Source: Elusimicrobiota bacterium
GTDB taxonomy: Bacteria; Elusimicrobiota; Elusimicrobia; UBA1565; UBA9628
Direction of reading: 5' to 3'
Assembly: GCA_030696455.1 (NCBI GenBank)
Contig: JAUYSH010000049.1
Location: forward strand, 1 to 47,855
DNA length: 47,855 bases
Positions 3,692-21,447 of this stretch are shown here, piece by piece (the stretch's first letter is position 1; the number at the start of each line of letters is the position of its first letter). A program made the translations under genes and the position numbers. The notes under the pieces were generated by a model. That model saw only the letters and a list, made by a program, of their open reading frames with translations. It did not search any database and was not told the DNA's origin.

Positions 3692-3703
3692 GATTATCCT
3701 CTA

Positions 3704-3732
3704 AGGATAGGTGCTGGCCCGCGGCCTGTCAA
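3704..3732 (-). promoter_or_regulatory. Sigma70-like promoter of the histidine kinase-LysM operon
   Basis: On the minus strand TTGACA (3732-3727) is followed after 17 nt by TATCCT (3709-3704). The -10 box ends 12 nt before the ATG, which leaves a leader of only about 5 nt. An AGAGGA element lies in that gap and could serve as a ribosome-binding site if transcription starts slightly earlier. Confidence 0.65.
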
Positions 3733-3751
3733 GCACCGCGCCCGGCCGATA

Positions 3752-5005
3752 TTAGAGGATGCCGCGAACGGCCGCGACGAACAACGGAAGGAGGAACCAG
3801 GCCCACCACAGCGGCACCGTCACCGGGGCGGACGCGGGGACGGCGGCGGATACCGCCGGCCTCGGTGTTCCCGGCGCCTGCAGGCGGGCCTCCGCGGCGG
3901 AGCGGGCGGCGTATTCGCCGGCGACGGCGAACGCCTCGAGCATCGCGCCGCGCTCGATCCAAGCGGTGGACGGCCCCGGCGCGAGTCGGCTCACGGGCTG
4001 AGGTGCCGCCGGCGCGGACAGGAGCGCTCCGCCCAAGGCCGAGCGCACGCGCACGATCAGGCCCGACCCCGACAGGTCGATGGCGAGCGGGCGCGGGACG
4101 CCGAGCACGGGAAGCGCCGCCGCCGCCGGCGACGCCGCGGCGCCGGCCCGCGCGAGGTCTCCGTTGGGCGACGCGGAGCGGTAGAAGGCGACGGCGCCGC
4201 CGGCACCGCCGGCCGCCGCGCCGCCCGGCACGGACGCGACCGCGTCATGAAGCGTCTCGCCGTCCGGGGAGTAGGACGGGCGGCCGGACGACGGCTCGTG
4301 GCCGGCGCCGAAGGCGCTTCCCGCGGCGGGCGCGCGCAGGCGCGAGCCCGAACCGAAGGCGCCTCCTTCGAGCATCGTCGCCGCGACGACCGAGGAAGGA
4401 GCGCCGGCGACGGAGGGATCCTCGAGCGTGCCGCGGCGAGACTCATCGCTCTGGTCGAAGAAGCCGCGGCCCAACCCGGCGGCTTTCTCCGGCCGCGCGT
4501 GCTCGAGAGAGGAGGTTTCGACAAGGGGGTTCGAGGACGGCCTGCCTTCGCGCTCCCGGGAGAACGACGCGCCTTCGTCCAACGCCGAATCCGCGGATTT
4601 CCGGTCCCGGGTGAAAACCAAAGTCGGCGCGCCGGGAGAGACCTTGCCGGGCAAAGCGGGCGTCTTATCGGCGGGACGGGTCCGCAGAGCCCTTTCAGCC
4701 GCGGGGGCGGGGCGGACGACGCCGGCCTCGGGCCGCACCGAGGCCGCGGCCGCCGCCTGCGTCTCGCCCAGGAAATGCCGCGCCGGTCCGACGAGACCGG
4801 GCACGGGCGAGGGCAGCAGCGGCAAGGACCCGCGCAGGTCGCCCGCGCTGCCCAGCGACGGCGCGCCCAGGGACGCGCCGCCGGGCGGCGCGACGGGCAT
4901 CACCGGCGCCGACGGGCGGGCCGGGGCCACGCCGCTCTCGACGGGCATGACGACGCCCGCCCAGGAGGACGCAGCCAGAAGCGCCAGCGCGAATAACGCG
5001 TTCAC
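3752..5005 (-). CDS. Ala/Pro/Ser-rich exported protein with C-terminal membrane anchor, unknown function
   Basis: This 417-aa protein starts with GTG and a short signal peptide (about residues 1-16, ending SSWA). A low-complexity Ala/Pro/Ser/Gly-rich body with no recognisable fold follows. It ends with one hydrophobic helix (about 395-413, containing WWAWFLLPLF) followed by a basic residue and almost no tail. That layout fits a surface or periplasmic protein tethered by its C-terminus. The adjacent 5444-aa protein also has a signal peptide, an Ala/Pro-rich N-terminal stretch and a WAW-type C-terminal anchor, so the two may work together or share a sorting route. No family recognised. No clear Shine-Dalgarno sequence precedes the GTG; a TAGACT hexamer lies 6 nt upstream. 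Confidence 0.7.
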   Translation of the reverse strand: MNALFALALLAASSWAGVVMPVESGVAPARPSAPVMPVAPPGGASLGAPSLGSAGDLRGSLPLLPSPVPGLVGPARHFLGETQAAAAASVRPEAGVVRPAPAAERALRTRPADKTPALPGKVSPGAPTLVFTRDRKSADSALDEGASFSREREGRPSSNPLVETSSLEHARPEKAAGLGRGFFDQSDESRRGTLEDPSVAGAPSSVVAATMLEGGAFGSGSRLRAPAAGSAFGAGHEPSSGRPSYSPDGETLHDAVASVPGGAAAGGAGGAVAFYRSASPNGDLARAGAAASPAAAALPVLGVPRPLAIDLSGSGLIVRVRSALGGALLSAPAAPQPVSRLAPGPSTAWIERGAMLEAFAVAGEYAARSAAEARLQAPGTPRPAVSAAVPASAPVTVPLWWAWFLLPLFVAAVRGIL

Positions 5006-5011
5006 GGCCCG

Positions 5012-5041
5012 AGTCTAGCACAAGGACGGGGCGGGATTCAG
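5012..5041 (-). promoter_or_regulatory. Possible promoter of the 417-aa exported protein gene
   Basis: TAGACT (5017-5012) lies 6 nt before the GTG start, with CTGAAT (5041-5036) 18 nt further upstream. The spacing implies a leaderless mRNA. The -35 match is weak. Confidence 0.35.
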
Positions 5042-5074
5042 CGCAAAAAAGAACGATTTTTTCGTATTTTTTTC

Positions 5075-5116
5075 ATAGGACCTAGGGCCCACGAGCGGCG
5101 GGGCCAAAGGTCCTAT
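5075..5116 (-). terminator. Hairpin overlapping the stop codon of the 5444-aa gene
   Basis: Bases 5075-5083 pair perfectly with 5108-5116 (9 bp). A 2x2 internal loop and a 5-bp GC stem (86-90 with 101-105, offset 5000) follow, with a 10-nt loop. The TAG stop (5115-5113) lies inside the stem. On the minus strand A-tracts come next and a T6 run appears only about 35 nt later, so this is not a canonical terminator. It may act as a 3' processing or stability stem. Confidence 0.45.
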
Positions 5117-8100
5117 ACGGCGGGGGCCGGGGGCGGGGTAGGCGTGCGGCGCAGCCAATGCCACAGCGCGGAGGCCAGGGCTCCCAGGAAGGCCAGGGCC
5201 AGCATCCAAGCCCAGAACATCGGGTTGGGGCCGTACGGCGGGCGCGGGTTGGCGGGGTCGTTCGGATCGCCGGGATTGGCCCGGGCCTCCTCGAGCAGGC
5301 GCAGGTAGCGGTCCCAGAAGGCGATGCGGTCCTTCAGGTCCTTGATCTCGCCCTCGAGCACGGCGATGCGCCGCTCGAGCTCCAGCTGCTCGCCGATGCG
5401 CGAGATGATGCGGTGCCAGTCCCGGCGGATGGTCTCGATCTCGCCGCGCGCCTGGTCGCGGTCGGCCAAGGCGCCCGTGGTCGCGGCGGCGGCCTCCGCC
5501 AAGGCCGTCTCGAGCCCGACGCGCTCCGCCTCGGTGCGCCGCTGCATCGCCTCCGCGGTGTCGCCGGCGCGGGCGCCGTAGGCGGCGGCCTGATCGCCGT
5601 AGGCGTCGGCGCCCGGGCGGATGCGCACGCGGCGCTCCACCTGATCGACGAACAGATGGCCCGGGGTGGCGGAGGTCACGACGTCGCCCGCGCGGCCCTC
5701 GGGGCCCGTCCCGCCCGACATCGGGTTGGCGGCGATCGTCCCGTCGGCGAGGCGGCGGTTGATCGCGTCGAGGCCGAGCTCGGCGGTGCGCGTCGACTCC
5801 TGATACCAGCCCTCGCGGCCGCGGCGCGTCTCGAGGATCACCTGCTCGACGCCGCCATGGAAGCGCGACAGCGTGCGCACGCGCGCCGCGTCGAGGTCCT
5901 CGGCGGCGTGCGTCGCCGCGCGCTGCAGGGACTGCCGGCCGAGGTGGATGTCCATGTCGTCCTTAGCCGCCTTCGCGCCTCTGCGGTCGCCGGGGCGCGC
6001 CGCCGCCAGCTCATCGCCCTCGCGCACCGTCATATCCTTGTCCCACAGGCCCTCGCCGGGGCGGATGGCGGAGTCGATGCGCACCTTGTCGGGGAACTGG
6101 CTCGGGTCGTAGAAGCGGTCGGCCGGGTCGGGAAGCAGGTTGAGGATGTCGACGGCGCCCAGCACGCTGCGGAAGAAGCCGTGGTCCTCGGTCGCGCCGC
6201 CCTCGGTCTTATACATGTACGCGCGGCCCAGGTAGTGGTGCTGGCGCGGGTCGCGGCCGGCGAACTCCGCGGGGATGCCGGCGACGCCGCGCGGGATCTC
6301 GAGGGCGATGTTGCCCCAGTTGAAGGGGAGGTACGACCAGTGCTTCGCCTTCCACAGCGCCGACTGCGCGCCGCTCAGCCGCTCGACGAGGTAGTTCTCG
6401 CCGAGCAGGACGGGCAGGTCGCCCTGCTGATAATGGCTGAAGCGGACCTTGGTCAGCGCCTCGTCGCCGTCGGCGCCCGCCTTGTCCGCGCCGGCGCGGT
6501 AGGACAGGAGCTTCCAGCCCTTGAACGCGTCGTCGACGGCCTGCTCGCTCGTGTAGGCGGAGACGAGCCGGCCTTCCCCATCGACGACGGCGGCGAACAG
6601 CGGGCCCGAGATCGTCTTGACGGCGGGGCCGCTCAGGAGCGGGTCGAGGGCCTTCGCCTTCTCCGCGCCGCGCGCGGCCGGCGCGGCGACGTTGACGAGC
6701 TTATCCCGCGAGTCGAGGCCGAGGCGCAGGTCCGCCGTGCGGTGCAAGGTCCAGGTCCCGGAGCGCTCCAAGGTCGTCACCGCGGCCTTGACCGCGGCGT
6801 CGGCGTTGACGGCGCGCGCCGAGGCGAGCTTGAGCTTGGAGGCCGCCTCGGTGTAGGCCTTGGCCGCGGCGTCCATCGCCTTCATCTCGACGGCGTAGGC
6901 CTCGTGCGCGTCCCGGATCGCGCTCTGGCGGGCGGCGTCCGCGGCCTTCGGGATCTTGCTCAGCTTGGGCTCGGCGACGCGGCGGTCGAGCTCGAGCTTG
7001 AACGTCGGCTCGCCCTCGACGAGGCCGGACTCGAGCATGGCCTGGCGCAGCTCGCCGCGCAGGCGGAGCTGGGCCGTCGAGTACGAGCGGCTCTGGCCGT
7101 CGGCGGCGGACTTGGCGGTCTCCGCCTCGGCCTTGCGCGCGGCCGCCTCGGCCTGCGCGGTCGCCAGGTCGCGCTTGGCCGTGGCGAGGTCGCGCTCCGC
7201 GTGATCATAGGCCTTCCACTGCGCCTCGAAGTCGTCCTTGGTGCGGTAAAGCTGGCTCACCTCGCCGTTCTCGTCGCGGGCGAAGCCGAAGCTGTTCAGC
7301 TTGACCTCGATCCAGCCGCGGCTGCGCTCGTAGAGCTGGTGGCCGCGGGCGTTCTTGACGAGCTCCGCCGCGCCGAGCGGCGAGATGGTCAAGGTCGTGA
7401 ACGCCGAGGCCTCCTCGGAGGCCTCGAGGCTCTTCAGGTTCGGGAAGCGGTCGCGGCCCAAGGGCGTGGCGCCCTCGTAGAGCTTCATGACGACTTCCTC
7501 GGGCGCCAGCTTGAGCGCCGCGATGGGGTGCAGCGCCTTGCCGGACTTGCCGTCCTCGAAGAAGAACACGCGCCCCTTCGAATGGAAGCCTTCGGGCCCG
7601 AAGACCTCCTGGAAGGTCCAGCCCCGGCCCTTCTGGTCGGCGCCGCCCGGAGCGACGAAGTGCTTCGACTCCATCAGCTTCTGCAGCTTCGCCTGGCCGA
7701 GGTTGGCGTTGTAATTCGTCTCGGCGGAGCGGCGCGCGGCGTCGGCGGCGTCCACGCCGCCGATCACCTCGTAGCGGCCCGAGACCTCGAGGCCGGTCTT
7801 GGGATCCTTCGGGCGGTCGATGAACCAGCCGTCGAGGCCCGTGGCGGGATCCTTGCGCGTGATGATCGCGCCGAGCTCGCCCGGATGCTTCTTGCCGTTC
7901 TCGACCATCTCCAGGACCTTGTCGGCGGTCATCCAATCGTCGACCGTCCAGGTGCGCCGGCCGTCGGCGTCGAGCCGCGTCACCGCGTACAGCGGCTGCA
8001 GATCCGGACCGACCTGGCCCGAGACCCAGCGCTCGCGCGTCTCCTTGAGGCGGGACAGCGCCTCGGCGATCGGGTCGATGCGGGCCGGGGTCTGGCGGGT

Positions 8101-11100
8101 CCAGCGGGCGGCGCGCAGGCGCGACTCCTCGAGCATGATCAGAGAGTCGAGCGCCGCCATGCCGCGCCCATGCTTGGCGCGCGCGATCGAGCGCTCCAGG
8201 ACCCCGGCGGCGTCGTAGAGCCCCATGAGCGCGCGCTTGACCGCCTCCGACGGCTTGTCGCCGAGCGTGCGCACCAGCTCGGCGTCGAAGGCGCTCTGGG
8301 CCTTCAGGTAGGCGTCGAGATGAAGGTCCTTGAGCACGAAGCGCGTCGCGCTCTCGCCGGAGTCGGCGAGGTAGCTCGTCAGCAGAGTATCGCGCGCGTC
8401 CTCGAGCGCGGAGTTGAGCTTATGGAGGCGCTCGAACGTCGCGGCCTCCGCGGGGGTGAGGTCGTGCGCCTGCCAGAACACCTCGCTGAGCGCGCGGTTG
8501 ACGCGGATCTTCTCGCCGCGGTCGACGGAGAAGGCGTTCGAGGCGGCCGCCAGGTCGGCCTTCATGAAGGCCATGAACGCGCCGCCGGCGGTGTCCGACT
8601 TCGGGTCGAGCTGGCCGATCCCGCGCAGGGCCGTCTGCAGCTCGGAGCGCAGGTTGAGCCGCTTGCCCTCGACGTCGATCTTGATGCGGAGGTCGAACTT
8701 CTCGGCCGGCGTGAAATCGTGGGCGGCGACGGCCTCCGCGTCGCGCAGGGCGACGCGGTAGGACGCCGCGTTCTCGATGATTCGGGCGCGCACCGCGGGC
8801 GGCACGGCCGTGCCCATGCGCGAGAGCAGCGCGTCGACGCCGGCCTCGAAGGACGGGTCGGCGTAGCGGCCGGCCATGTAGTCGAGCAGCTGGCTCTTCG
8901 GGTCCGGGCGGGCGGAGAGCGGGGTCTCGGGCACGTCGCGGGCGATGAAGGGGCGCAGGCTGCCGGCGGAGCCCTCGCCCAGGGCCTCGAGCTCGGTCAC
9001 CAAGGTGATGAAGTCGGCCTTCGTCGTCGTCATCGAGCGGGCGAAGCCGTCCCATGCCGTGACCAGCGAGTCCTGGGCTGCTTTATACTCCGCGGAGCCG
9101 GGGCCGGTCGTCTCCGCGCGGGCGCGAAGGGCGGCCTCGGAGGACTCGATGAGCTTGCGCCGGGCCTCGAGGCCCTTGGCGCCGTCCTCGACGCGGATCA
9201 TCAGCGAGTGCAGGCGCAAGGTCAACTCCTGCAGGCGGCCCGAGGACTGCAGCTCCTTGCGCAGGACCTCGCCCATGACCTTCTCGAGGCCGGCCTCGAT
9301 CTCGCGGGGGTCGGGCGCCTCGATGAAGCCGCCGGCGATCGGGGTGCCGCGGAAGTAGCCGAAGGTGGCCACGGGCGTGAAGCCCTTGTAGCTCATGCGC
9401 TCGGCGATCGTGTTGGCCTTGATCTGGCCCATGAGCCCGTCTTCGTTGCCCCAGCTCGCGGGCACGCCGCCGTCGAACAGGGTGCGCCGGATCGAGTCGA
9501 TCTGGCGCAGGCGGATGTCCTCGATCAGCCGCCCCGCCAGGTCGCGCGGGTTGTCGGCGGCGGCCGCGTCGTCGGGCACCAGGCGCAGGAGGTCGTCGAG
9601 CTTGGTCGCCGGGGGCAGGCCCAGGCGCGCCACGAGCTGCTGCCGCTGCGCCTGCAGACGGACGACCAGGGCCTCCCGAACCTCTTCGATCTGGCCCGGG
9701 GCCGCCGACGCGGCGCGGCCGCTGATCTCGCGGTCGAGGTAGCGCAGGAGGCGCGCGTCGCCCTCGAACTGGGCGGCGACGATGTCGGCGCGCGCGGCGG
9801 CGCCGACGAGCGCGTCGCGGTAGAGGCGGTCGGCCTTCGCGGAGCGAAGCTCGGCCAGGCGCAGCAGGACCTCGGGCGGAGTGCCCGGGTCGGCGAGGCG
9901 CAGCTCGATCCAGCCCTCGACGAAGTTCCGGTCGATCGGCTCGTGGCCCAAGGTCTGCTTGGCGAAGTAGTAGCGCACGAACGCGGCGGAGCGGTGCTTC
10001 AGATTATCGGGCGTGAGCAGGTCGAGGCGGTCCTCGGGGGCGACCGTGGTCAGCGCCTGCTCCGACGCGGCGAGGCGGCGCGTGAGCTCCGGCCAGGTCC
10101 CCGGAAGCTCGCCCTTGGCCTGAGACCCCTTGGCTTCGGGATTGACGCCCAGGGAGAGCAGGCCCGCCTGCAAGGTGAAGATGGCGGAGGAGAGACTGCT
10201 CTTCTTGAGCAGGCTTTCCGCGTCGTTGCCGGTGACGGCCTCGAGCTCGGCGCGCGCGGCGTTGAGGCGCAGCGCGATCTTGGCGCTCTCGTCGGCGCGG
10301 CGGCCGTCGTAGGCGTCGCGCTCGCGCTCCTCGGTCAAGGTCTGGATGCGCGCGGCGGCGGCGAGCTCGGTGTTGTAGATCGGCGCGTCGGTCAGCGCGC
10401 CCATCAGGCGGCCGAGGGAGCGCACGACCAGGCTCACGGGCTCGAGCTGGAGCATCTCGACCTTCAGGTTCTTGTCGACGAGCTCCTCGACGGCCTTCGC
10501 CGTGGCGACGCGGGCGTCGAGTATGCGGCGCTGGGTGCCGACGGGGTCCTTCGCGGCGAGCAGGCGCGAGAGGGCCTCGAGGGCCTGACGCTCGTCGATG
10601 GAGGCCGTGACCGGCGCCTCGGCGGGGCGCCCGAGCAGGAAGTTGATCGTCTCGCGGGCGTGCGCGAACTCGAGGGCGGTCTTCTCCCGGGCGACCTTGG
10701 CCTCGTCGTGGCGGCGCACGGCGCCCGGCGCGCCGGAGGCGGCCGCGGCGGCGAGCTCCGGCAGCAGGCGGCCGTCGTAGACCGCGAGCCGCGACTCGGC
10801 GGAGCGCAGGACGACCATGTTCTGGTAGAACTGGACGGCGAGGCCGGCCTCGACGCGCCCCTTGAGGGCGTTGTAGTACTCGGCCTGCTGGCTGTGCTGG
10901 GTCACCTGCAGCTCGCGCATCTCCTCGGGCTTGAGCTCGAAGCCCAGGACGGGGGTGATGGGGATGCCGGTGATGCCGATCGAGGGCAGCCAGCCCACGC
11001 CCTGCGCCGTCAGACCCATGCCGACGTTGACGTCGAGCCACGCCTTCTGGACGCGGTGGTCCGCGGCGCGCGCCATCTCCTCGGCCGCCTCCTGGCGCTT

Positions 11101-14100
11101 GGCGATCTCGTAGAGGCTGTGGGAGCCCGCCGAGGCCGCGGCGAAGGCGTCGTCGAGAGAGGACAGGCGCAACGGCCCGCCGCCGCTGCGGGTGGGGCGC
11201 TCGAACGGCGCGGTGACCGCGGCCTGGGCCCGGAGCAGCTCATATTGAGACATCGCGTTTAGCGATGTGGACATGTACCAGTTCCAGTTCCCGAAGGCCT
11301 CGCTGAGCTTCTCGGGCGCGATGAGGCCGTTGCGGTAGGCGCGGATCGCGTCCGAGAGGGCGCGGGCGGAGGCGGGCGTGTTCGGCTCGACCGCCCGCGC
11401 GGTCGCGTCCCAGATGCGGGACTGCTCGAGGGCGGCCCGGCCCGCGAGCGTGCGCTCCGCGTAGGCCTGGCGCATTTCGGCCTGCACGGCCTGGGACTCG
11501 AGCGCGTAGGCCTTATCAGACGACGTCGAGGCAGGATTATAAATGGGCAGTCGCACGGAGGCGCCGAGCGTGAGGGCCTGGTTGGCCATCATGTCCTGGA
11601 ACTGCACGCCGAAGCCGACCGTCAGGCGGTCCACCCAGGGGATCCAGTCGATGACGTTGAAGGGATCCTCTCCGACGGACCGCTTCAGGGATTCCTCGTC
11701 GAGGCTGCCCAGGATGGTGGCGAGGCGGTCGGGAGAGGTCACCAGGCGGCGGATGTTGCCGAGCATGCGGCGCAGGTCCTCGGAGTTGAGGTCCTGGAAC
11801 GGGGGCGCGCTCTGCGGATCGCGGCCGGTGATCGAGTTGTAGCGCAGCACCGCCTGGTGCAGGCGGGACTCCGCGTCGGCGAGACGGACCGCGGCCTCGC
11901 GGCGGGAGGCCTCGGAGGGGGCGTTTTGGACGGCGAAGTCGGCGATCTTCAGCGCCCACTGCGCCTCGGCCACCTCGACCACCGCGGCCTGCCAGTCCTT
12001 GGTCAGCTCCAGCATGCGGTCCTGCAGGCGCAGGCCCTCGCGGTACAGAATTTGAGCCTTGGATTCGATCAACTGTTTCTGTGTTTTTGAAAGACTCATC
12101 TCGGTGTAGGTGCCGACGGTGAAGCCGCCGCCGACGGCGCGCTCGGCCAAGTCGTTGGAGACCGAGCCCGAGACGAAGCCGACCATGCCGCGCACGCGGG
12201 AGTTCTCCATGAAGGCGCCGGCGCGGCGGAGCTCCTGGATCTCGCGCGTCAGGTTGCCGATGTCCTGCGTCACGAGCTTGCGGGCGACGTCCCGCTCGAA
12301 CACCTTCTGTAATTCCATCGCCGTGCGGGAGGACTTCGCGTCGTCGCCCCCGAAGAAGTCCCCGAGCTCTCGGTTATAGGCCTTGAGCGTCTCGCCGCCG
12401 CGCAGGTTCTGGGCCGAGTTGTCGCTGACCTTCTGCCACAGTTCGGCGAGGGTGAACGAAGTGTTCATCGTGAGCGAGAGGCGGTTGTTCATCCCGACGT
12501 ACTGCGAGCCGTAGCTCAGCGCGATGTTCGCATTGCTGCTTATTTTCTTGGAAATCTCGCCGAAGTAGGTCTTCGCTCCCCCGATGATCTTGCCTTCGGC
12601 GCTGACGACGAGGCCCGAATCGGGGAAGGACACCGAGAGGCGGTCGCCGATCTCATTCTGCTTCGCGCCCATCTCGCCGGTCAGGCGGTTGTCGATGCGC
12701 ATCCAGGTCTTCCCCTCGTCGTTCTTGATGGAGAACCCTTTGAGGATGCTGACTCCGCCGACCTGCTGATTGATGTCGTCCGTGCCCGTGGTCTTCGCCC
12801 AGTACAGGTCGAGCGTGAAGGTGTCCCCCCCTCCGTCGGGATTCATCAGGCGGTTGAGGTCGAACTGCGGCCCGACCTGCGTGCGGAAGTATTCCTTCTT
12901 CTCCCCCTCGGCCATGATCGCGAAGGTGCGGTTGAGGTCGGGGTCGTAGCCGGTGAAGTCGAGGTTGACCTCCTGGAGGAACTTACGGGGGTCCTGGGCG
13001 AACAGGGTCCGCTGCTCGAAGTTCAGCTTCATGACCTCGGTCAGCTTCAGCGAGCTCTTCACGTTGCCGCCGTAGTAGTAGGGCTTCTCGCTCGTGTCGG
13101 TCACCGCTCCGTCGGCGAAACCGGCCAGGCCGACGTACAGGCGGTCTCCGAAGAGCATGACCGCGAAGTCGTCGAAGATCATCATCCGGCTCTCGCCGGC
13201 CCCGGTCTTGACGCTGTTGTCGGCCGGGATGTCGAAGGCGAAGCGGTGCAGATCGACGTTCAGATAATTGACCCAGTTCTTGCCCTGAAGGCTCTCGACC
13301 TGGACCTCGACGCCCTTGTCGCCGTACGGCGCGTTCTCCCCGTCCTTGCTCGGCGGGCTGGCGAGCTGGTAACCGGAGACGCTGACGTTGCTGCCGAAGA
13401 CGCGGCCGATGTTGCCCAACGTCACCCACGAGCTCGTGTTGAGCCCGTGGGGCACCGAGAACTGGGACTGGTAGACGAGGTAGAACCCGTCGGCGGTGTC
13501 CCCGAACTCGAGCACCTTGGAGTTCGGGATGAGGGACGCCAGGCCCTGCGGGTTCTTGAGCAGGTCGGCCTTGATCGCGGACACCTCCGCCGCGGAGTTC
13601 TGCGCGCCCTGCGTGATCATGCCGAGCAAGGTGTCCACGAAGGCTCCGTACTCGGATTTGCGGATGACGAGGGAAGCAGGATCGGATTTGCTGCCGTCGC
13701 TGGCCCAGCCCGAGCGTCCCATGCGCAGGGCCTCGATGCGGCGGACGAGGTCGGGCGGGAGCTCCCCCTGGACCTCGGGCTTGGCGAGGATGGCCGCAAG
13801 CTCGCCCTGCTTGTCGTCGATCTGGGTCAGCTGCGACTGGAGGATCTCGCGCGAACGGCCGAGCTGATCCTGAAGGCGGTGCCAGTCGATGTTGGCCTCG
13901 AGGACCGCGCGCGTCTTGTCCATGATCCGGGAAATGTCCTCGCTGACGTTGTTGAGGGCGCTCTTCTCCTTCGGATTGAGCTGGCCGAGCCAGGCGGAGA
14001 TCTTGACCCGCTTCTCCTCGAGATCGGTCATCGTCCTGCGCAGGGCTTCCTGCATCGTGTTCAGGGCCTCGACCTCGTTGTCATTGGCCGTCTGGCCGCC

Positions 14101-17100
14101 GTCGTAGATGTCGTGAAGAGAGTCGTAATAGCTCTGCACGCTGTCGACGGTGCCGTACTTGTCGCGATTCCAGGTCTGCTTGAGCCGGAAGAACTCCATG
14201 CCCTCGACCAGGACCGCGTCGAGGCTCGAGAACACCCGGATCTTGCGCGCGAAGACCTGCTCCGGGGTCTCGCTCGTGCCGTTGGAGGCGGCGTAGGCCT
14301 CGTCCCGCGGGATGTCGGCGATGGCGTCGCCGAGCACGGTCGATACGCGGGCGAGGAACCGCTCGGCCGCCGGCACCTGCAAGGAGAGGCCTTCGTTCGC
14401 GGCCTCGATGACCGTGTCCGAGTACAGCAGGCGCGCGATCGCGAACGCGGCCGGGGCGCTGTCGGGCTGGGCCAGGCTCGTGGGCACGAGCCGCTTGGCG
14501 GCCTCGAGCGCGAGCAGGGAGATCTGCTGGTTCTCGGAGACCGTGATCGCCGGCTGGGTGCCGGAGGGGACCGTGCCGTCCCCGCCGCTGCCGCCGAGGT
14601 CGATGGTCGCCGCCCCCGCCTGCGACTCGTCGGCCACCGCCTTGAGCCGGTCGACGAGCCTCGTGATCGCGTCGGAGTCGACGGCCGCCTGCACCCGGGC
14701 CACGCCCGCCGCGTCGGGGGTCACCCCCACCGGGAGGCGATAAGCGGACATTTGGAAGCGTCCCTTGGATATGGTCTCGATCTTGCCGATGATCTCGTTT
14801 ATCTGCGCATCCTGCGCGTTGATCTGCTCCGCGCGCTGAGCGCGCTCGGCGGTGTACTGCGCGATCTTCTTGGGGAGGCTGTAGGGCTGGGTCTCGCCGT
14901 AAACGACCTCGGTGCCGGAGAAATTCGGGTCCTTGCGGTTGGCCATCTCGACCTGGAACTCGCGGATGCCCTTGTGGTGGCCCTCGGCGTCGTCGTAGCC
15001 GTCCAGGTTCTTCTGCAGCTTGTGTCGCCATTCGCCGATCTTCCGCGTCGCCTCGGCCTGATTGCCGTCCGCGGCCCCGAAGGTCGCGAACGCCCACGGC
15101 ATGGTGCGGTTCTGGAGCTTGACGGCCTCGGTGATCACCGTCTTCTGCGAGTCGAACAAGGTGAAATAGTCGCTGCCGGCGGCCGCCACGTCGTCGATGG
15201 ACTTCTGCTGGTACGGGATCAAGGTGTCCGCAAGCATCGTGCGCGCGCCGCGCAGCGAGGGCAGGATCGTGTCGCGCAGCAGCGCCGTTTTGCGGTCGAT
15301 CACGGCCTGGCGCGCGGCCTTGCCGTTGCTGTCCGGCGGCGGAGGGTTGTTGACGAACGCGAGATCGACGTCGATGTCGGCGAGCACGGTGTCGAGCATG
15401 GTCACCACGCCCTGCAGACCGTCGCGGGCCTTGGGCAAAGTGTTCACCATCGCGTCGTCGATGGCGGTCACCGTCGCGTCGGCCTTCGACCAGCGGATCA
15501 CCTCGCGGGCCGCGCGAGGCACGAGCTTGGCCGAGGCCACCAGGTCCATCGTCGCCGCATGGACCTCGACGGAGTCGCCGTCCGGGAAATCGACCGCCTT
15601 GAGGCTGTCGCCGTAGGTCTTGATCGCCTCCTGCAGCGCGTCGAGGCCGAGGCCCGACAGCATCGGGATGTTCGAGCCCGCGACCCGGTTGATGGTGGCC
15701 GCGTTGGCGTCGAGGCGGCTCAGGTGGCCGGTCAAGACGCCGCGCGCGGTCGAGATCTCGGCCTGGGACTGGGCCTTCCACTGCGGCAGGGACTCGGGGT
15801 GCGGGTCGCCGAACTCGTCGATGACCGTCCGCCCGTTGCCGGCGTCGAGCATGCGGTTGACCGTGGCGAGCGACTCGCTGAAGTCGGCGCGCTTGTCCTG
15901 CCAGTGGACCCGGCGGTCGGCCAGGACCTGGCGCATCTGCTCCTGGCTCGGGTTGTTGAGGGAGACCTCGGGGCCGGGGATCTTGCCGATGAGCACGCCC
16001 GCGTACTCGTCGGGCATGCCGACCATGCTCGTCAGGCCGGCCTCGGCCGAGGCGATGTTGTCGTCGACCTCGGCCAGGTTCTCGTTGAACTTCTTCAGCG
16101 AGAAGGCGTCGGGATCGTTCGGGTTCCCGCCGTTAGTGCGCCAGGCCTTGATCTGCGGCAGGAGGTCCATGCGCCGCTGATACTCCGTCGCCGCGTCCGC
16201 GCTCCGGCCGCGGTCCTGCGCGTTGACCGCGTCGATGAACGCGCGCATGTCGGTCTGAAAGGAGCCGAGGGTCGTCGCGACCATGCCCGCCTTGGCCTGG
16301 GAATCGGCGAGGTCCCGCAGGGTCTTGTCGTCGGCGGCGATGTCGCGCTCGATCTCGGCGCGCCACGCCTGGGTGTTGGCCGCGTTCCCGTCCGCGCCGG
16401 CCTGGTTCTGCCGGTTGCCCGCGCGGGACGCGGCGATCTTCTCGCGCTTGGCCTCGAGGAGATCCATCATCTGCTTGATCGCGGCCTGGGCGGCGTTGAT
16501 CTCGTTGAGCGAGAGCGCCAGGTCCATCACGCTGGCGAGCTTGGCCATGTCGGTATGGAAGCGCAGCATGTCCTTGCCGTCGCGGCGGTCGCGCAGGGCG
16601 GCGTTGCGGATCCGGTTCGAGGAGGCGAGCAGCTGGGAGGTCGCGTCCCGCTGCGCGACCTCCCCCTTCGCCTCGGCGCGCAGCGCCTCGATCTCGCCGA
16701 CGAGCTTGTCGATCTCCGCCTTCGTGTCCGCGCTCAAGGTGGCCGCCACGCCGCCCGGCGTGCGCGGGCCCGTGCCCTCGGCGTAGTCGGACAGGCGCTG
16801 GGCCAGGGCCTTCATCGACGCGTCCTGGGCGGCGAGGTCCTCCCAGTAGCCGTTGCGGTCGGGAGGCGGCGGCGTCAGGCCCGCGAACTCCTTCTGCAGG
16901 GCCTCGAGGCGGGCCAGGGCGTCCGCGTCGCTCGGCGGGCTCAGCAGGTCGCGGCGTTCGGCCAGCTTCTCGCGCACCGCCACCTCGTCGGACTTGACGG
17001 CGAGCGCGGCCTCCAGGCGCGCGCGCTCGGCCTCCTCCTCGGGGGTCACGGGGCGGCTCAGCTGCCGAAGGCGCGCGAGCTGGGCCTCCTTGTCGTTGAG

Positions 17101-20100
17101 CTCGGAGAGGAGCCGGATGCGATGCTCCTGGACCGCCTCGATCTCGGCTTCCAGATGGCCGGCCTGCCCGGTCAGCTCCTTGATCCGCGCCATGACCTGG
17201 TCCATCGGCAGCTTCCATAGGTGCGGGTCGAACGGCGCGCCCGCGGTTGCCTGCTCGGGCGACCTCGCGTCGGTCCGATCGGACGAGGCGGCGATGAGGG
17301 CCTGGGCCGAGAGCATCGCCATCGGGAGATCCTTGGCGCTCTCGCCGAGCGCCGCGCCCTTGGCCATCAAGGTCGCGCGCATCACCGCGTCGGAGATGTC
17401 GAAGCCGGCGAGCGTCGTGAGCTTATGAAGGAGCACGTTGCCCCAGGTGATCGCTCCGCCGAACGGGATCAGGTTCTGGTGAGTGACGCCGTTCTCATCG
17501 ACCCATTCATCCGAGCGCTCCACCGCCGCGCCCACGGCATGAAGCAGCCCGGGTTTGACGCCGAAGGCGGACTCCAACGCGGGGTCTATGACAGCGTCGA
17601 GCTGGGTGGCGTAGGTCATGATGCCTTCGATCTCCGCGCCGACCGTGACCAGGGCGAAGAAGGACTTCAGGTTCGACTTCCAGAACTCCCAGGTGATCGC
17701 CGCGTGCAGCACCGCGACGATCAGCCCCTGGACGGGGAGGCTCGCCAGCGGGGCGTCGTCGCGCAGCTTCGCGATGCGCTCGCGGGCGGCGCGCGGGAAG
17801 GTCAGCAAGGTGGACAGGATCAGCGTATTGAGGAGGGGGCCCAGGACGAGATCCCTGGCCAAGGCCGCGGCCGCCGCCGCGAAGACCGGCGCCAGAGCCT
17901 CGCCCACGAAGGGCACCGCGGCGACGGCGACCGGCAGGCCGTTGAGCACGGCGACTATTGAGGGACCAAGCACCGGTATGGACGTCAGCGCGAAGGAGAG
18001 CGGCAGGACCGGCGCGAACGCGCCGAGCAGGCCCATCGCGATAGCGCTCATGACCGCCAGGGTCAGGCGGCGCGCGATGAAGGTCTTCATGGGTGCGGCG
18101 AACGGGACGATGAACCAGCGGTTGGCCGCCCGATACCAGCCCTTCGCGCGCAGGCCCGCCAAGGCTCCCGCGCCGTCGAACGCGTCCTTGCGCATCGAGG
18201 ACTGGAGCCACTGCTCCGCGAAGTTCTCCCGGTCCGACAAGGCCATGAAGTCCTCGGTCGAGTGGCGGAACTCGAAGGACATCGCCTGGCGGAAGTAGCC
18301 GAAGATGAACATGTCGAAGAGGTGATAGGGGAACCGCACCGCCGCGGTCATGAAGTGCTTGTGGAGCTCGAGGGTCCGCTGGAGCGCGCCCTTCCAGCCG
18401 GGGGCGTAGGTCTTGTTGGCGAGCTCGCGGAAGCTCTTCCAGCCGGAGTATTTCTTCTGATCGTAGCGCTTGAACTGGTCGCGGTTGGCCGCCTGGAGGC
18501 GGTCGTAGACCCCGACCCACGACTCGAGCGGGCTGAACTCGTTGAGGCGGTACTTGACGCCGAGCTCGATGACGCGGTCGCGCTTGATGTTGAACTGACG
18601 CGAGATCTGGTCGATGACCTGGTCGATGCTCTCGATCTTCAGGAGGGGCTTGAGGGAGGGATCGTGGCGCACGCCCTTGACGGTGCGGAAGCCGAAGAAG
18701 TCCTCGTAGATGTGCTTGGGAGCGACGCGGGGTCCGGGGAAGGAGGGCTCTTCGGGCTTGGGCACTTCCGGCTTGGGGATCTCGGGCTGTGGGACCTCGG
18801 GAGCCGGGGCGGCCGGGGGATCGGGATTCGCCGGAGGCCCGCGCTCGTCCGGCAGCTCCGGCTTCGGCAGCGGCGCGGCGGGCTTGGCGACCGAGGCGAC
18901 GGCTGTGCCCCGGCCGCGGGAATCCTTGAACGACCAGGCCGCGTCCCCCTTCCAGGTCGGGATCAGCTCCAGGCGCGCCGGCTTGAGGCCGGGCTTGGCC
19001 GCCTTCAGCGCGGCGTAGGCGACGGCGACGGGCGCCACCTTGGCGAGGCGGGAGTCGTGGAGGGTCGGGATGCGGCGCGCGCCCGGGCGCAGGCGCTGGG
19101 TCTCGATGCGCTTGGTCCACACCGTCAGCTCCTCGCGGCGCGCGTCGGAGCGGAAGATGAAGGTCCAGTGCGAGCGCGGGTCGTCGAGGTTGATCGTCAC
19201 GCGCACGAGGCGGGCGTCGGGGGCCAAAGCCCGGGCCCGCGCCCGCGCCTGAGCCTTCAGGACCAGCAGAGCCTTGCCGTCGGCGCCGCGCGCGTCCTCG
19301 GGCAGTCTCTCGAAGCTCTTCGGCGGCTTGGCGTCGGCCGTCACCGGCAGCGGGGCCGCCTCGAACACCGGCTTGCCGTCGGCGCCGACGAAGGCCGCCC
19401 GGCCGAGGGCGTCGAGGAAGCGGTAGGAGGCCGCGCCGGTCCACGCCGGGTCCACCTCGACGCGCACCGGCCGGAAGCCGCGGTTCGCCTTCTTGAGCGC
19501 CGCGTAGGCGCGATCGAGCGGGCCCATCTCGCCCAGCCGCGTGTCCCAAAGCGTCGGCGCCTTGGTCGGGCGGAAGCCGAGCTTGCGCACCCCGACGCGC
19601 TTCGTCCAGACCGTCAGCTCCTCGTTGCGCTTGTCGGAGCGGAAGATGAAGATCCAATGCGAGCGAGGGTCCTCGAGGTTGATGGCCACGCTGACGAGCC
19701 GGGCGTCGGGCGCCAGGGCCCGCGCCCGGGCCTGCGCCTCGGCCTTCGCGGCGAGCATCGCTGCGCTCGTCGCCTCGCGCGCGTCGGCGGGAAAGCGTTT
19801 CCAACTGCGCGGGAGAGCCGGTTCATCGGCGGCCTCCGCCGAAGCCTGGTCCTGAACGGCCGGGGCTTCCGCGCCCGGAGCCGCGGTCTCGGCGACCGGC
19901 GCAGGAGCCTCGGCGATCGGCGCCGAAGCCTCGGCGATCGAAGCAGGAAAGTCCGCGTCGGGCGCCTCGTCGGCGACGGGAGCGACCGGCTTCGCCGCGC
20001 GCCGGCCGACCCACCAGCTGGCTCCCGAGACGAGGACGTAGGCCGCGTTGAGCGCGGCGTACAGGCCGTACTGGGCGGCCTGCGGGGAGCCGGGCTCGGC

Positions 20101-21447
20101 GATCCAGGCGAGATGGCCGGTCCAGACCACGAAGCCCAGCGAAGCCAGCAGGAACAGCAAAGAGAAGCCGGGGGTGAAGCCCTTCGGCGCCTGGCCGCGC
20201 ACGATCGAGATGATGTCGGGCAGGAAGAGCAGGAAGAAGGCCCCGCCCGTCGCCGCCATGATCCCGAAGGTGACGTTGGCGATCGCCGCCGCGCCGAACG
20301 CGGCCGCGAGCGCCGCCGGGACCACGGCCGCGGCCCCGTAGTACAGCGCCGTCGCCGCGGCCAGGGCGATGACCGAGGTGACGGCGGTAGCGATGAAAGT
20401 CCTCTTCTTGCTCAGCCCCTGCGCGTCCGCGCCGGCGGCCTTCTTGCCCCAGCGGGCCGCGGGCCAGGCCATGAGCATGGCCGCGGCGGCGAAGGTGTTC
20501 TGTATGCCCCAGAACGGCATGCCGGCCACGGTCGCGTTGACGAGGCCGAGCGCCAAGCTCGCGGTGACGAGCACGCCCGCGCGCCAGGTCGGCGCGCCGA
20601 CCTTGCCGCCCTGGATCGCCTTGAATACCTCGGGAATGGGGAAGACGAAGGCCAGCGCGTTGCCGACCCAATAGCCCGCCTGCCCCAGATACTGGCCGAT
20701 GGCCGCCAGAGGCGTCGCGTCGGGCACGTTCAAGGGCACCATGCCCGCGGCCTTCGAACCGGAGTTGGCGACGGCCAAGGTGCCGCCCGCGGCGAGCGAG
20801 GCGGCCGTCAGGCCGAGGCGTCGCTTCCAGCTCTTACCCTCGGCGGCGGGGACCAGCGCCCGGACGGCGCCCGAGGCCGAGGCGCCGGACTCGTCCTGGA
20901 GCCGGCGGAAGGCGGCATCGGCGAAACCCTTCGCATCGACGCCCGCGGCCTCGGCGGGCAGGGCCGCGGCGTCGACGGATTTGGCCGGGGTCTTCGCCGC
21001 ACCGGGCGTCGCCGCGCGATCCGGGACGGCTGGGGCCGGCCGGGACATGAGCGCCTTGATCGACGCGAAGGGACCCGCCGGCGCGATGGCCGCGACGGAA
21101 GCCGGAGCGGCGGGGACCATGGACGGATTTGCGAGCGCGGGCAAGATGCGGCCATGGCCGCCGAAAGCCGCGGCCGACGGGGCCAGAGAGGGCGTCATCG
21201 ACGGGGACGGCAGCGCCGCCAAGGCGGGCGTCAGGGAGGCGTTGAACCCCGCGGGCGACAGCGGAGAGAGAACCTGGGGCAGGGCCGACGCGCCGGCCTG
21301 CGCTCCGTAGCCCGGAGCGTTGGGCTTGGCCGATATGGCCCGGATCTCCTGGGCGTAGATCGGGCCGACCCCGGACAGGACGAGGGCGGCCGCGAGCGCG
21401 GTCGCCGTGATTTTCCGTCCCAAGAAGCGCAGGGAGCGAGGGGTCAC
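5113..21447 (-). CDS. Giant 5444-aa envelope protein with TolC/OMF-like repeats, membrane helices and C-terminal anchor
   Basis: One uninterrupted frame. Layout by residue: signal peptide 1-33 (ends IYAQ); Ala/Pro-rich 34-200; about seven hydrophobic helices at 250-485; acidic Ala/Pro linker; two homologous repeats at 546-695 and 708-852; PEVPKPE-type Pro-rich linker 853-907; a second helix cluster at 1120-1270; helical and coiled-coil 1420-2600; beta-rich 2667-3003; outer-membrane-factor-like helical repeats about 3000-4100 (cues: LTLGASVRLPIYN near 3290, NFLLGRPAEAP near 3605, LVARLGLPP near 3940); long helical region to about 5400; C-terminal helix 5409-5433 containing FWAWMLALAF. The GTG start is chosen because it gives a complete signal peptide; a promoter-like element lies 9 nt upstream. 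The protein probably spans or bridges the envelope. The OMF assignment is inference from hydrophobic and sequence pattern. Confidence 0.8.
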   Translation of the reverse strand: MTPRSLRFLGRKITATALAAALVLSGVGPIYAQEIRAISAKPNAPGYGAQAGASALPQVLSPLSPAGFNASLTPALAALPSPSMTPSLAPSAAAFGGHGRILPALANPSMVPAAPASVAAIAPAGPFASIKALMSRPAPAVPDRAATPGAAKTPAKSVDAAALPAEAAGVDAKGFADAAFRRLQDESGASASGAVRALVPAAEGKSWKRRLGLTAASLAAGGTLAVANSGSKAAGMVPLNVPDATPLAAIGQYLGQAGYWVGNALAFVFPIPEVFKAIQGGKVGAPTWRAGVLVTASLALGLVNATVAGMPFWGIQNTFAAAAMLMAWPAARWGKKAAGADAQGLSKKRTFIATAVTSVIALAAATALYYGAAAVVPAALAAAFGAAAIANVTFGIMAATGGAFFLLFLPDIISIVRGQAPKGFTPGFSLLFLLASLGFVVWTGHLAWIAEPGSPQAAQYGLYAALNAAYVLVSGASWWVGRRAAKPVAPVADEAPDADFPASIAEASAPIAEAPAPVAETAAPGAEAPAVQDQASAEAADEPALPRSWKRFPADAREATSAAMLAAKAEAQARARALAPDARLVSVAINLEDPRSHWIFIFRSDKRNEELTVWTKRVGVRKLGFRPTKAPTLWDTRLGEMGPLDRAYAALKKANRGFRPVRVEVDPAWTGAASYRFLDALGRAAFVGADGKPVFEAAPLPVTADAKPPKSFERLPEDARGADGKALLVLKAQARARARALAPDARLVRVTINLDDPRSHWTFIFRSDARREELTVWTKRIETQRLRPGARRIPTLHDSRLAKVAPVAVAYAALKAAKPGLKPARLELIPTWKGDAAWSFKDSRGRGTAVASVAKPAAPLPKPELPDERGPPANPDPPAAPAPEVPQPEIPKPEVPKPEEPSFPGPRVAPKHIYEDFFGFRTVKGVRHDPSLKPLLKIESIDQVIDQISRQFNIKRDRVIELGVKYRLNEFSPLESWVGVYDRLQAANRDQFKRYDQKKYSGWKSFRELANKTYAPGWKGALQRTLELHKHFMTAAVRFPYHLFDMFIFGYFRQAMSFEFRHSTEDFMALSDRENFAEQWLQSSMRKDAFDGAGALAGLRAKGWYRAANRWFIVPFAAPMKTFIARRLTLAVMSAIAMGLLGAFAPVLPLSFALTSIPVLGPSIVAVLNGLPVAVAAVPFVGEALAPVFAAAAAALARDLVLGPLLNTLILSTLLTFPRAARERIAKLRDDAPLASLPVQGLIVAVLHAAITWEFWKSNLKSFFALVTVGAEIEGIMTYATQLDAVIDPALESAFGVKPGLLHAVGAAVERSDEWVDENGVTHQNLIPFGGAITWGNVLLHKLTTLAGFDISDAVMRATLMAKGAALGESAKDLPMAMLSAQALIAASSDRTDARSPEQATAGAPFDPHLWKLPMDQVMARIKELTGQAGHLEAEIEAVQEHRIRLLSELNDKEAQLARLRQLSRPVTPEEEAERARLEAALAVKSDEVAVREKLAERRDLLSPPSDADALARLEALQKEFAGLTPPPPDRNGYWEDLAAQDASMKALAQRLSDYAEGTGPRTPGGVAATLSADTKAEIDKLVGEIEALRAEAKGEVAQRDATSQLLASSNRIRNAALRDRRDGKDMLRFHTDMAKLASVMDLALSLNEINAAQAAIKQMMDLLEAKREKIAASRAGNRQNQAGADGNAANTQAWRAEIERDIAADDKTLRDLADSQAKAGMVATTLGSFQTDMRAFIDAVNAQDRGRSADAATEYQRRMDLLPQIKAWRTNGGNPNDPDAFSLKKFNENLAEVDDNIASAEAGLTSMVGMPDEYAGVLIGKIPGPEVSLNNPSQEQMRQVLADRRVHWQDKRADFSESLATVNRMLDAGNGRTVIDEFGDPHPESLPQWKAQSQAEISTARGVLTGHLSRLDANAATINRVAGSNIPMLSGLGLDALQEAIKTYGDSLKAVDFPDGDSVEVHAATMDLVASAKLVPRAAREVIRWSKADATVTAIDDAMVNTLPKARDGLQGVVTMLDTVLADIDVDLAFVNNPPPPDSNGKAARQAVIDRKTALLRDTILPSLRGARTMLADTLIPYQQKSIDDVAAAGSDYFTLFDSQKTVITEAVKLQNRTMPWAFATFGAADGNQAEATRKIGEWRHKLQKNLDGYDDAEGHHKGIREFQVEMANRKDPNFSGTEVVYGETQPYSLPKKIAQYTAERAQRAEQINAQDAQINEIIGKIETISKGRFQMSAYRLPVGVTPDAAGVARVQAAVDSDAITRLVDRLKAVADESQAGAATIDLGGSGGDGTVPSGTQPAITVSENQQISLLALEAAKRLVPTSLAQPDSAPAAFAIARLLYSDTVIEAANEGLSLQVPAAERFLARVSTVLGDAIADIPRDEAYAASNGTSETPEQVFARKIRVFSSLDAVLVEGMEFFRLKQTWNRDKYGTVDSVQSYYDSLHDIYDGGQTANDNEVEALNTMQEALRRTMTDLEEKRVKISAWLGQLNPKEKSALNNVSEDISRIMDKTRAVLEANIDWHRLQDQLGRSREILQSQLTQIDDKQGELAAILAKPEVQGELPPDLVRRIEALRMGRSGWASDGSKSDPASLVIRKSEYGAFVDTLLGMITQGAQNSAAEVSAIKADLLKNPQGLASLIPNSKVLEFGDTADGFYLVYQSQFSVPHGLNTSSWVTLGNIGRVFGSNVSVSGYQLASPPSKDGENAPYGDKGVEVQVESLQGKNWVNYLNVDLHRFAFDIPADNSVKTGAGESRMMIFDDFAVMLFGDRLYVGLAGFADGAVTDTSEKPYYYGGNVKSSLKLTEVMKLNFEQRTLFAQDPRKFLQEVNLDFTGYDPDLNRTFAIMAEGEKKEYFRTQVGPQFDLNRLMNPDGGGDTFTLDLYWAKTTGTDDINQQVGGVSILKGFSIKNDEGKTWMRIDNRLTGEMGAKQNEIGDRLSVSFPDSGLVVSAEGKIIGGAKTYFGEISKKISSNANIALSYGSQYVGMNNRLSLTMNTSFTLAELWQKVSDNSAQNLRGGETLKAYNRELGDFFGGDDAKSSRTAMELQKVFERDVARKLVTQDIGNLTREIQELRRAGAFMENSRVRGMVGFVSGSVSNDLAERAVGGGFTVGTYTEMSLSKTQKQLIESKAQILYREGLRLQDRMLELTKDWQAAVVEVAEAQWALKIADFAVQNAPSEASRREAAVRLADAESRLHQAVLRYNSITGRDPQSAPPFQDLNSEDLRRMLGNIRRLVTSPDRLATILGSLDEESLKRSVGEDPFNVIDWIPWVDRLTVGFGVQFQDMMANQALTLGASVRLPIYNPASTSSDKAYALESQAVQAEMRQAYAERTLAGRAALEQSRIWDATARAVEPNTPASARALSDAIRAYRNGLIAPEKLSEAFGNWNWYMSTSLNAMSQYELLRAQAAVTAPFERPTRSGGGPLRLSSLDDAFAAASAGSHSLYEIAKRQEAAEEMARAADHRVQKAWLDVNVGMGLTAQGVGWLPSIGITGIPITPVLGFELKPEEMRELQVTQHSQQAEYYNALKGRVEAGLAVQFYQNMVVLRSAESRLAVYDGRLLPELAAAAASGAPGAVRRHDEAKVAREKTALEFAHARETINFLLGRPAEAPVTASIDERQALEALSRLLAAKDPVGTQRRILDARVATAKAVEELVDKNLKVEMLQLEPVSLVVRSLGRLMGALTDAPIYNTELAAAARIQTLTEERERDAYDGRRADESAKIALRLNAARAELEAVTGNDAESLLKKSSLSSAIFTLQAGLLSLGVNPEAKGSQAKGELPGTWPELTRRLAASEQALTTVAPEDRLDLLTPDNLKHRSAAFVRYYFAKQTLGHEPIDRNFVEGWIELRLADPGTPPEVLLRLAELRSAKADRLYRDALVGAAARADIVAAQFEGDARLLRYLDREISGRAASAAPGQIEEVREALVVRLQAQRQQLVARLGLPPATKLDDLLRLVPDDAAAADNPRDLAGRLIEDIRLRQIDSIRRTLFDGGVPASWGNEDGLMGQIKANTIAERMSYKGFTPVATFGYFRGTPIAGGFIEAPDPREIEAGLEKVMGEVLRKELQSSGRLQELTLRLHSLMIRVEDGAKGLEARRKLIESSEAALRARAETTGPGSAEYKAAQDSLVTAWDGFARSMTTTKADFITLVTELEALGEGSAGSLRPFIARDVPETPLSARPDPKSQLLDYMAGRYADPSFEAGVDALLSRMGTAVPPAVRARIIENAASYRVALRDAEAVAAHDFTPAEKFDLRIKIDVEGKRLNLRSELQTALRGIGQLDPKSDTAGGAFMAFMKADLAAASNAFSVDRGEKIRVNRALSEVFWQAHDLTPAEAATFERLHKLNSALEDARDTLLTSYLADSGESATRFVLKDLHLDAYLKAQSAFDAELVRTLGDKPSEAVKRALMGLYDAAGVLERSIARAKHGRGMAALDSLIMLEESRLRAARWTRQTPARIDPIAEALSRLKETRERWVSGQVGPDLQPLYAVTRLDADGRRTWTVDDWMTADKVLEMVENGKKHPGELGAIITRKDPATGLDGWFIDRPKDPKTGLEVSGRYEVIGGVDAADAARRSAETNYNANLGQAKLQKLMESKHFVAPGGADQKGRGWTFQEVFGPEGFHSKGRVFFFEDGKSGKALHPIAALKLAPEEVVMKLYEGATPLGRDRFPNLKSLEASEEASAFTTLTISPLGAAELVKNARGHQLYERSRGWIEVKLNSFGFARDENGEVSQLYRTKDDFEAQWKAYDHAERDLATAKRDLATAQAEAAARKAEAETAKSAADGQSRSYSTAQLRLRGELRQAMLESGLVEGEPTFKLELDRRVAEPKLSKIPKAADAARQSAIRDAHEAYAVEMKAMDAAAKAYTEAASKLKLASARAVNADAAVKAAVTTLERSGTWTLHRTADLRLGLDSRDKLVNVAAPAARGAEKAKALDPLLSGPAVKTISGPLFAAVVDGEGRLVSAYTSEQAVDDAFKGWKLLSYRAGADKAGADGDEALTKVRFSHYQQGDLPVLLGENYLVERLSGAQSALWKAKHWSYLPFNWGNIALEIPRGVAGIPAEFAGRDPRQHHYLGRAYMYKTEGGATEDHGFFRSVLGAVDILNLLPDPADRFYDPSQFPDKVRIDSAIRPGEGLWDKDMTVREGDELAAARPGDRRGAKAAKDDMDIHLGRQSLQRAATHAAEDLDAARVRTLSRFHGGVEQVILETRRGREGWYQESTRTAELGLDAINRRLADGTIAANPMSGGTGPEGRAGDVVTSATPGHLFVDQVERRVRIRPGADAYGDQAAAYGARAGDTAEAMQRRTEAERVGLETALAEAAAATTGALADRDQARGEIETIRRDWHRIISRIGEQLELERRIAVLEGEIKDLKDRIAFWDRYLRLLEEARANPGDPNDPANPRPPYGPNPMFWAWMLALAFLGALASALWHWLRRTPTPPPAPAV
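18893..19811 (-). repeat. Tandem duplicated ~150-aa domain within the giant protein
   Basis: Residues 546-695 (19811-19365) and 708-852 (19326-18893) of the 5444-aa protein are clearly homologous. Both contain ARALAPDARLV, a NL-DPRSHW-FIFRSD block, EELTVWTKR, PTL-D-RL and a YAALK block in the same order. The DNA is also similar around the DPRSHW block, so the duplication is fairly recent or conserved. I do not recognise the domain. Confidence 0.88.

Follow-up and report, generated by a model that had tools for sequence, protein, structure and literature searches.

Does a single very long polypeptide encoded at this locus contain enough repeats of the outer-membrane factor (OMF, TolC) type to build a channel alone? 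A review (PMC8277102, section 6.2) describes TolC-type ducts as homotrimers with a 12-strand barrel; each OMF protomer consists of two copies of a motif that has two strands, a 67-residue helix (H3/H7 in OprM) and further helices 23 and 36 residues long. A sequence-only reading of the window, which here means the whole analysed stretch of 47,855 nucleotides from an Elusimicrobiota bacterium, had proposed that a 5444-aa chain at 5113–21447 carries four or more such repeats at about residues 3000–4100.

A conserved giant gene

The proposed frame is present and conserved. It lies on the minus strand, which the sequence-only reading had not specified:

5113–21447, minus strand: giant gene, 5444 aa, GTG start, no cysteine (ORF translation, conservation, codon-position pattern)

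Besides lacking cysteine, the protein contains 15.6% alanine. Its residues 2900–4200 were matched in 43 of the 58 genomes searched (the window's own genome and relatives), and many of the relatives, in independent genomes, have unbroken frames of 3300–5650 aa. For the OMF-like part, full-length relatives free of stops were found in genomes G016, G003 and G006, at 72–87% identity. Compared with the relative L049, the OMF module has 124, 79 and 289 nucleotide differences at codon positions 1, 2 and 3, respectively, which is the pattern of a conserved protein. Given the full-length relatives without stops and the codon-position pattern, the 5444-aa ORF is a real gene. A false frame or an assembly artefact, in favour of which it can be said that long antisense frames arise in high-GC DNA, has next to no chance of being the explanation: frames of 4000–5600 aa stay unbroken across independent genomes, the differences are biased by codon position, and for the OMF-like part it is already excluded.

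The relatives in named records (41 loci) come from Elusimicrobiota MAGs, or from MAGs titled just "bacterium". Alignment A3 comprised 30 rows, namely the window and 29 of the 41 loci, after partial loci were dropped; a 33-row alignment omitted frames of 1700 aa or less as well as L061, L063, L069, L088 and L089. The complete genome JAD_PAG50586_1 (CP096137), which came from an amoeba enrichment from Lake Zurich, belongs to GTDB order UBA1565, SILVA Lineage IV (PMC9476967). In this nanopore genome the giant genes (L088/G010) show a stop and breaks, for which assembly errors are possible, and these copies were excluded from the alignments.

Fold and sequence of the repeat module

An AlphaFold2 model of residues 2960–4159, built on 30 aligned rows, reached a mean pLDDT of 71.1 and a pTM of 0.65. 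The model is made of six successive units, each following the strand–strand–long helix–shorter helix order of the OMF/TolC repeat, at model residues 123–248, 315–456, 507–645, 705–806, 862–983 and 1065–1199. The expected four or more repeats thus became six, equal to the 3 × 2 repeats of a TolC trimer, with the hairpin of unit 4 degenerate:

8971–12570, minus strand: OMF module of six units, residues 2960–4159 (AlphaFold2, Foldseek, VIA-align)
11827–12204, minus strand: unit 1, residues 3082–3207, ending at ITGRDP; model strands 123–133 and 150–161, helices 165–216 and 220–248
11203–11628, minus strand: unit 2, residues 3274–3415, containing LTLGASVRLPIYN; model strands 315–321 and 333–344, helices 348–413 and 419–456; OEP match in L062 (4.7e-6), hhalign 72.9%
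10636–11052, minus strand: unit 3, residues 3466–3604, ending at NFLLGR; model strands 507–523 and 538–546, helices 549–611 and 617–645; hhalign 91.0%, full OEP repeat
10153–10458, minus strand: unit 4, residues 3664–3765, hairpin degenerate; sole model strand 705–709, then helices 717–726, 734–778 and 784–806
9622–9987, minus strand: unit 5, residues 3821–3942, ending near LVARLGLPP; model strands 862–872 and 878–891, helices 899–950 and 960–983; recurs in a separate model, without a sequence match of its own
8974–9378, minus strand: unit 6, residues 4024–4158; model strands 1065–1073 and 1076–1085, helices 1088–1154 and 1160–1199; OEP match in L059 (2.8e-4), hhalign 61.9%, retrieves ordinary OMFs

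The long helices of units 1–6 measure 52, 66, 63, 45, 52 and 67 residues. As modelled, they resemble the 67-residue helices H3/H7 of OMFs (PMC8277102). Ten clear strands and one remnant are present, versus twelve in an OMF barrel, and barrel closure is not shown; the remnant is the 5-residue strand that unit 4 retains. The pLDDT was below 50 in parts adjoining the unit 5 and unit 6 hairpins. Strand alternation was at least at the level of ordinary OMFs (0.46–0.47) in 5 of 11 tested segments (U1a, U2a, U2b, U3a and U5b), while unit 4 scored 0.44 and unit 6 showed no alternation (0.03 and 0.17). Each motif quoted in the earlier reading occurs once in the chain: ITGRDP at 3206–3211, LTLGASVRLPIYN at 3292–3304, NFLLGR at 3602–3607 and LVARLGLPP at 3938–3946. 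Three of these had been taken for repeat caps, and in the predicted structure ITGRDP, NFLLGR and LVARLGLPP do fall at or just past the points where units 1, 3 and 5 end, these units being the first repeats of each protomer equivalent.

When the six-unit model was compared with the PDB using Foldseek, ranks 1–38 were all OMF/TolC chains (best 6.9e-5); 17 OMF chains had E ≤ 0.001, and the next fold was an ABC transporter at 0.036. VIA-align placed units 3+4 (model residues 468–808) onto a whole OMF monomer, OprN (5azp_A), with a Z of 18.3, an rmsd of 4.5 and 315 residues aligned, and units 1+2 (model residues 69–456) onto CusC (4k34_B), with a Z of 12.8 and 208 aligned. TolC itself aligned to model residues 181–653, a register shift of about one unit, with a Z of 10. 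Units 5+6 were folded separately (residues 3740–4240, 33 rows; pLDDT 65.4, pTM 0.54). For this second model the Foldseek ranks 1–38 were again OMF chains (best 1.5e-5), with TM-scores of just about 0.2, and VIA-align matched its residues 60–420 to a NodT-family OMF (Z 11.0, 229 aligned). Since a Z of about 11 lies within the range attainable by helical bundles, and since the TM-scores are low, the case for units 5+6 leans more on the consistent list of matches, the hairpins and the sequence match of unit 6 than on the Z score.

Similarity to OMFs was also sought in the sequence. A Pfam search with the window's protein, submitted in three pieces, gave nothing above the cut-off, and neither phmmer nor profile searches against PDB sequences found an OMF by sequence alone. 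Within the family, Pfam OEP (PF02321) was matched in 6 of 30 members at E ≤ 10; 16 of these 30 (alignment A3) had their Pfam rows read individually. The best match among family members, and one above the cut-off, was to unit 2 of L062 (4.7e-6; 27.0 bits versus a cut-off of 22), followed by unit 6 of L059 (2.8e-4) and unit 2 of L077 (0.01); L068 and L061 had weaker matches in unit 6. An OMF profile run on the full relatives reached E < 1e-3 for L059 and L065 only. The family profile was in turn run against 247 genomes of the phylum and matched 29: 21 in the window's order, two with distant giants elsewhere in the class (G048, G057), and six with short frames (425–528 aa) matched at unit 6. Four of these six frames were checked, and each was an ordinary OMF with two OEP repeats.

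A profile of the OMF repeat was made from 35 ordinary Elusimicrobiota repeats and compared by hhalign with 107 overlapping segments covering the whole chain. Eight segments exceeded 30% probability, all within residues 3201–4250; segments starting outside 2951–4300 reached at most 4.4%, and a reversed-profile decoy at most 1.7%. By unit, the probability was 91.0% for unit 3, 72.9% for unit 2 and 61.9% for unit 6; units 1, 4 and 5 had no clear match to the repeat profile (each < 3%). Against full-length OMFs, unit 3 favoured repeat 1 (90.7 versus 83.2%), and units 2 and 6 favoured repeat 2. Judged from these alignments, the repeat parity of units 3, 2 and 6 is as required by three protomers in a row. 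Among the units themselves, a match of 97.8% between units 1 and 2 was rejected as an artefact of overlapping segments. Unit-versus-unit hhalign otherwise gave no clear mutual recognition (unit 1/unit 3, 60% over 32 columns), and a self-hhalign for internal repeats was empty.

The sequence-only reading had named two outcomes that would refute it, no OMF hits in overlapping segments and a predicted structure of plain coiled coils. Neither occurred: OMF matches exist, and the model has paired strands. The OMF-like pattern that it placed at about residues 3000–4100 is upheld by the six units of the model, by Foldseek ranks 1–38 and by hhalign peaks found only there. The alternative that long amphipathic helices (coiled coil) resemble OMFs by chance draws on the abundance of alanine-rich helices in this protein and on the absence of a sequence match in units 4 and 5, yet the other long stretches of the chain and the reversed decoy score nothing against the OMF profile, strand pairs are predicted in both models, and OMFs precede any other fold in Foldseek, 38 of them, twice. 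Already disfavoured, chance resemblance is very improbable. We therefore hold with high confidence that six OMF units lie in one chain. Since units 1+2, 3+4 and 5+6 are OMF-like, residues of about 3028–4159 are read as three consecutive OMF (TolC-type) protomer equivalents, with two strand–strand–helix–helix repeats each, which is the content of a TolC trimer.

Flanking regions and neighbouring genes

The module is embedded in long flanks, and the giant gene lies between two smaller genes:

21590–22492, minus strand: Y1-transposase-like gene, 300 aa, just upstream of the giant gene (PF01797, 8e-8)
21352–21447, minus strand: putative signal peptide, residues 1–32, signal-like and hydrophobic at 13–31; relatives begin alike; cleavage site inferred
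20008–20715, minus strand: N-terminal hydrophobic cluster, residues about 245–480 (hydropathy)
18883–19815, minus strand: tandem duplicated small domain, unnamed, residues 545–690 and 709–855 (the translation shows two copies that resemble each other)
17668–18120, minus strand: second hydrophobic cluster, residues about 1110–1260, inner-membrane type (hydropathy, 1123–1252; within the 22-row alignment A6)
13678–17250, minus strand: long region, residues 1400–2590, read from the sequence as helical/coiled-coil (alignment A5, 27 rows)
12463–13650, minus strand: beta-rich domain, residues 2600–2995, beta by eye (alignment A4)
5248–8970, minus strand: C-terminal region, residues 4160–5400, without known domain (alignment A7)
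5161–5223, minus strand: C-terminal membrane helix, residues 5409–5429, followed by basic residues (hydropathy)
3752–5005, minus strand: next gene, 417 aa, exported-looking with a hydrophobic C-terminus, conserved in close relatives

Membrane helices at both ends and a C-terminal anchor had been predicted for the chain, and hydrophobic stretches were found accordingly, by hydropathy only. The N-terminal cluster (helices 290–450) is mainly a feature of close relatives, 6 of 32 relatives covering it. The C-terminal helix is also present in L049, L050, L055, L056 and others. In a 31-row tree of the module, 21 rows separated from 10 with full support; the window's gene fell into the larger group, and a second copy from the same genome (G000:C100) into the smaller one. 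Complete members of the smaller group are without the C-terminal membrane helix, as judged by hydropathy, which indicates that the duct module, unlike the anchors, is constant across the family. The best conserved part is the beta-rich domain directly before the duct (identity 0.56–0.62 versus 0.3–0.56 elsewhere). It had no PDB match and no convincing Pfam match. No convincing match was found for regions 2590–3000, 905–1400 and 4160–5444 against PDB and/or Pfam, nor for region 1400–2600 against PDB (the Pfam scan did not include it).

A relative of the Y1-transposase-like gene lies upstream at 13 of 13 subfamily 1 loci (9 within 1 kb) and at 0 of 4 subfamily 2 loci (17 loci with more than 1 kb upstream); the gene looks vertically kept rather than mobile. 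Two genes downstream of the giant gene, the frame at 159–3686 (minus strand), kept in close relatives, has LysM, a below-cut-off FecR match and a glucodextranase-B domain. A second giant frame at 31056–39419 (minus strand) encodes 2787 aa with no cysteine, a signal-like start and no Pfam family. In another genome, locus L124 (G004:C34; frame at 2668 on the plus strand, 1469 aa) starts with two OEP repeats and has an RND-pump-like end by eye; it is possibly an OMF-pump fusion, or a read-through.

Transport partners were looked for in the surroundings. Scans of 14 other ORFs of the window recognised none as MFP, RND or ABC, and none was matched in 10 flanking ORFs chosen beside five subfamily 2 loci. 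Within the chain, the only trace of an MFP/HlyD adaptor (lipoyl and beta-barrel domains with an alpha-hairpin) was weak EmrA rows at unit 6 (E 0.11 and 0.14). Some OMF genes are located apart from their pumps, so the absence of adaptor and transporter neighbours weighs little.

A proposed single-chain duct

What computation supports is the gene, its conservation, the six-unit pattern, the OMF-type fold and a weak but repeated OMF sequence similarity. Beyond this, we consider it probable that the chain contains a working single-chain OMF duct, although barrel closure, outer-membrane insertion and transport are inferred. In the proposed mechanism, a single polypeptide would supply the six repeats that TolC draws from three subunits, and the three protomer equivalents would, most likely, close into one pseudo-threefold outer-membrane duct. 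The hairpins would form or complete the outer-membrane beta-barrel, and the long helices would make the periplasmic tunnel.

The module might instead be derived from an OMF without being a channel any longer: with the unit 4 hairpin lost and the barrel incomplete, the six units would serve as a stiff strut or scaffold, tethering the two membranes or bearing other domains. We regard this as unlikely, without dismissing it. The degenerate unit 4, the weak strand alternation of unit 6 and huge flanks without recognisable transport partners speak for such a strut, whereas five hairpins persist in the model, cap residues are kept (in unit 1, G in 30 of 30 rows and R in 29 of 30; in unit 3, N in 30 of 30), and the module retains 36–86% identity to the window among relatives. 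By inference, moreover, the adjacent beta-rich domain could supply the strands missing from the duct. Several chains, for example 3 × 6 repeats, could also join into a wider duct. OMFs are trimeric by nature (PMC8277102), and the present data leave stoichiometry unconstrained; however, six repeats make exactly one TolC trimer and the unit parity matches the protomer order, and we give a larger assembly only a slight chance.

On the single-chain reading, the chain of the larger subfamily may return to the inner membrane through the helical stretch, the hydrophobic cluster or clusters and the C-terminal anchor, and would thereby replace a separate adaptor; spanning is inferred. A natural single-chain TolC trimer, joined to an inner-membrane anchor and a periplasmic bridge of its own as a complete, asymmetric, envelope-spanning duct, is thus advanced tentatively, as possible rather than probable.

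Compared with known systems, the module is like OMF/TolC proteins (PF02321 OEP; TolC, OprM, OprN, CusC) in its order of two strands, long helix and shorter helix, its paired repeats, its repeat-end caps and its weak sequence match. It differs in that one chain carries all six repeats, rather than three chains carrying two apiece, and in lying inside a 5444-aa protein, with one hairpin degenerate and membrane helices before and after it. Although OMF-like in its presumed working, it was kept apart from ordinary OMFs because one of the features that define them, two repeats per chain, was checked and is absent. Tripartite efflux pumps and type 1 secretion systems (OMF, adaptor and inner-membrane transporter) would have the same overall task if the giant chain spans the envelope, but no adaptor or transporter was recognised in the giant chain or the window. 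An artificial covalently linked AcrB trimer is mentioned in PMC8277102. There, too, a trimer was turned into one chain; that one is an engineered inner-membrane pump, while the giant protein would be a natural fusion of the exit duct. No report of a natural fused or single-chain OMF was found in the open-licence PMC literature, whose coverage is incomplete and which was accessible only in part.

If the single-chain duct is real, the protomer equivalents could be altered one by one, something difficult to do in a homotrimer, and the three would be free to diverge and specialise. Asymmetric opening and the roles of subunits would become directly testable. The family would also illustrate how three separate parts can become a single envelope-spanning chain, and would offer a first entry point to the study of giant proteins in uncultured Elusimicrobiota.
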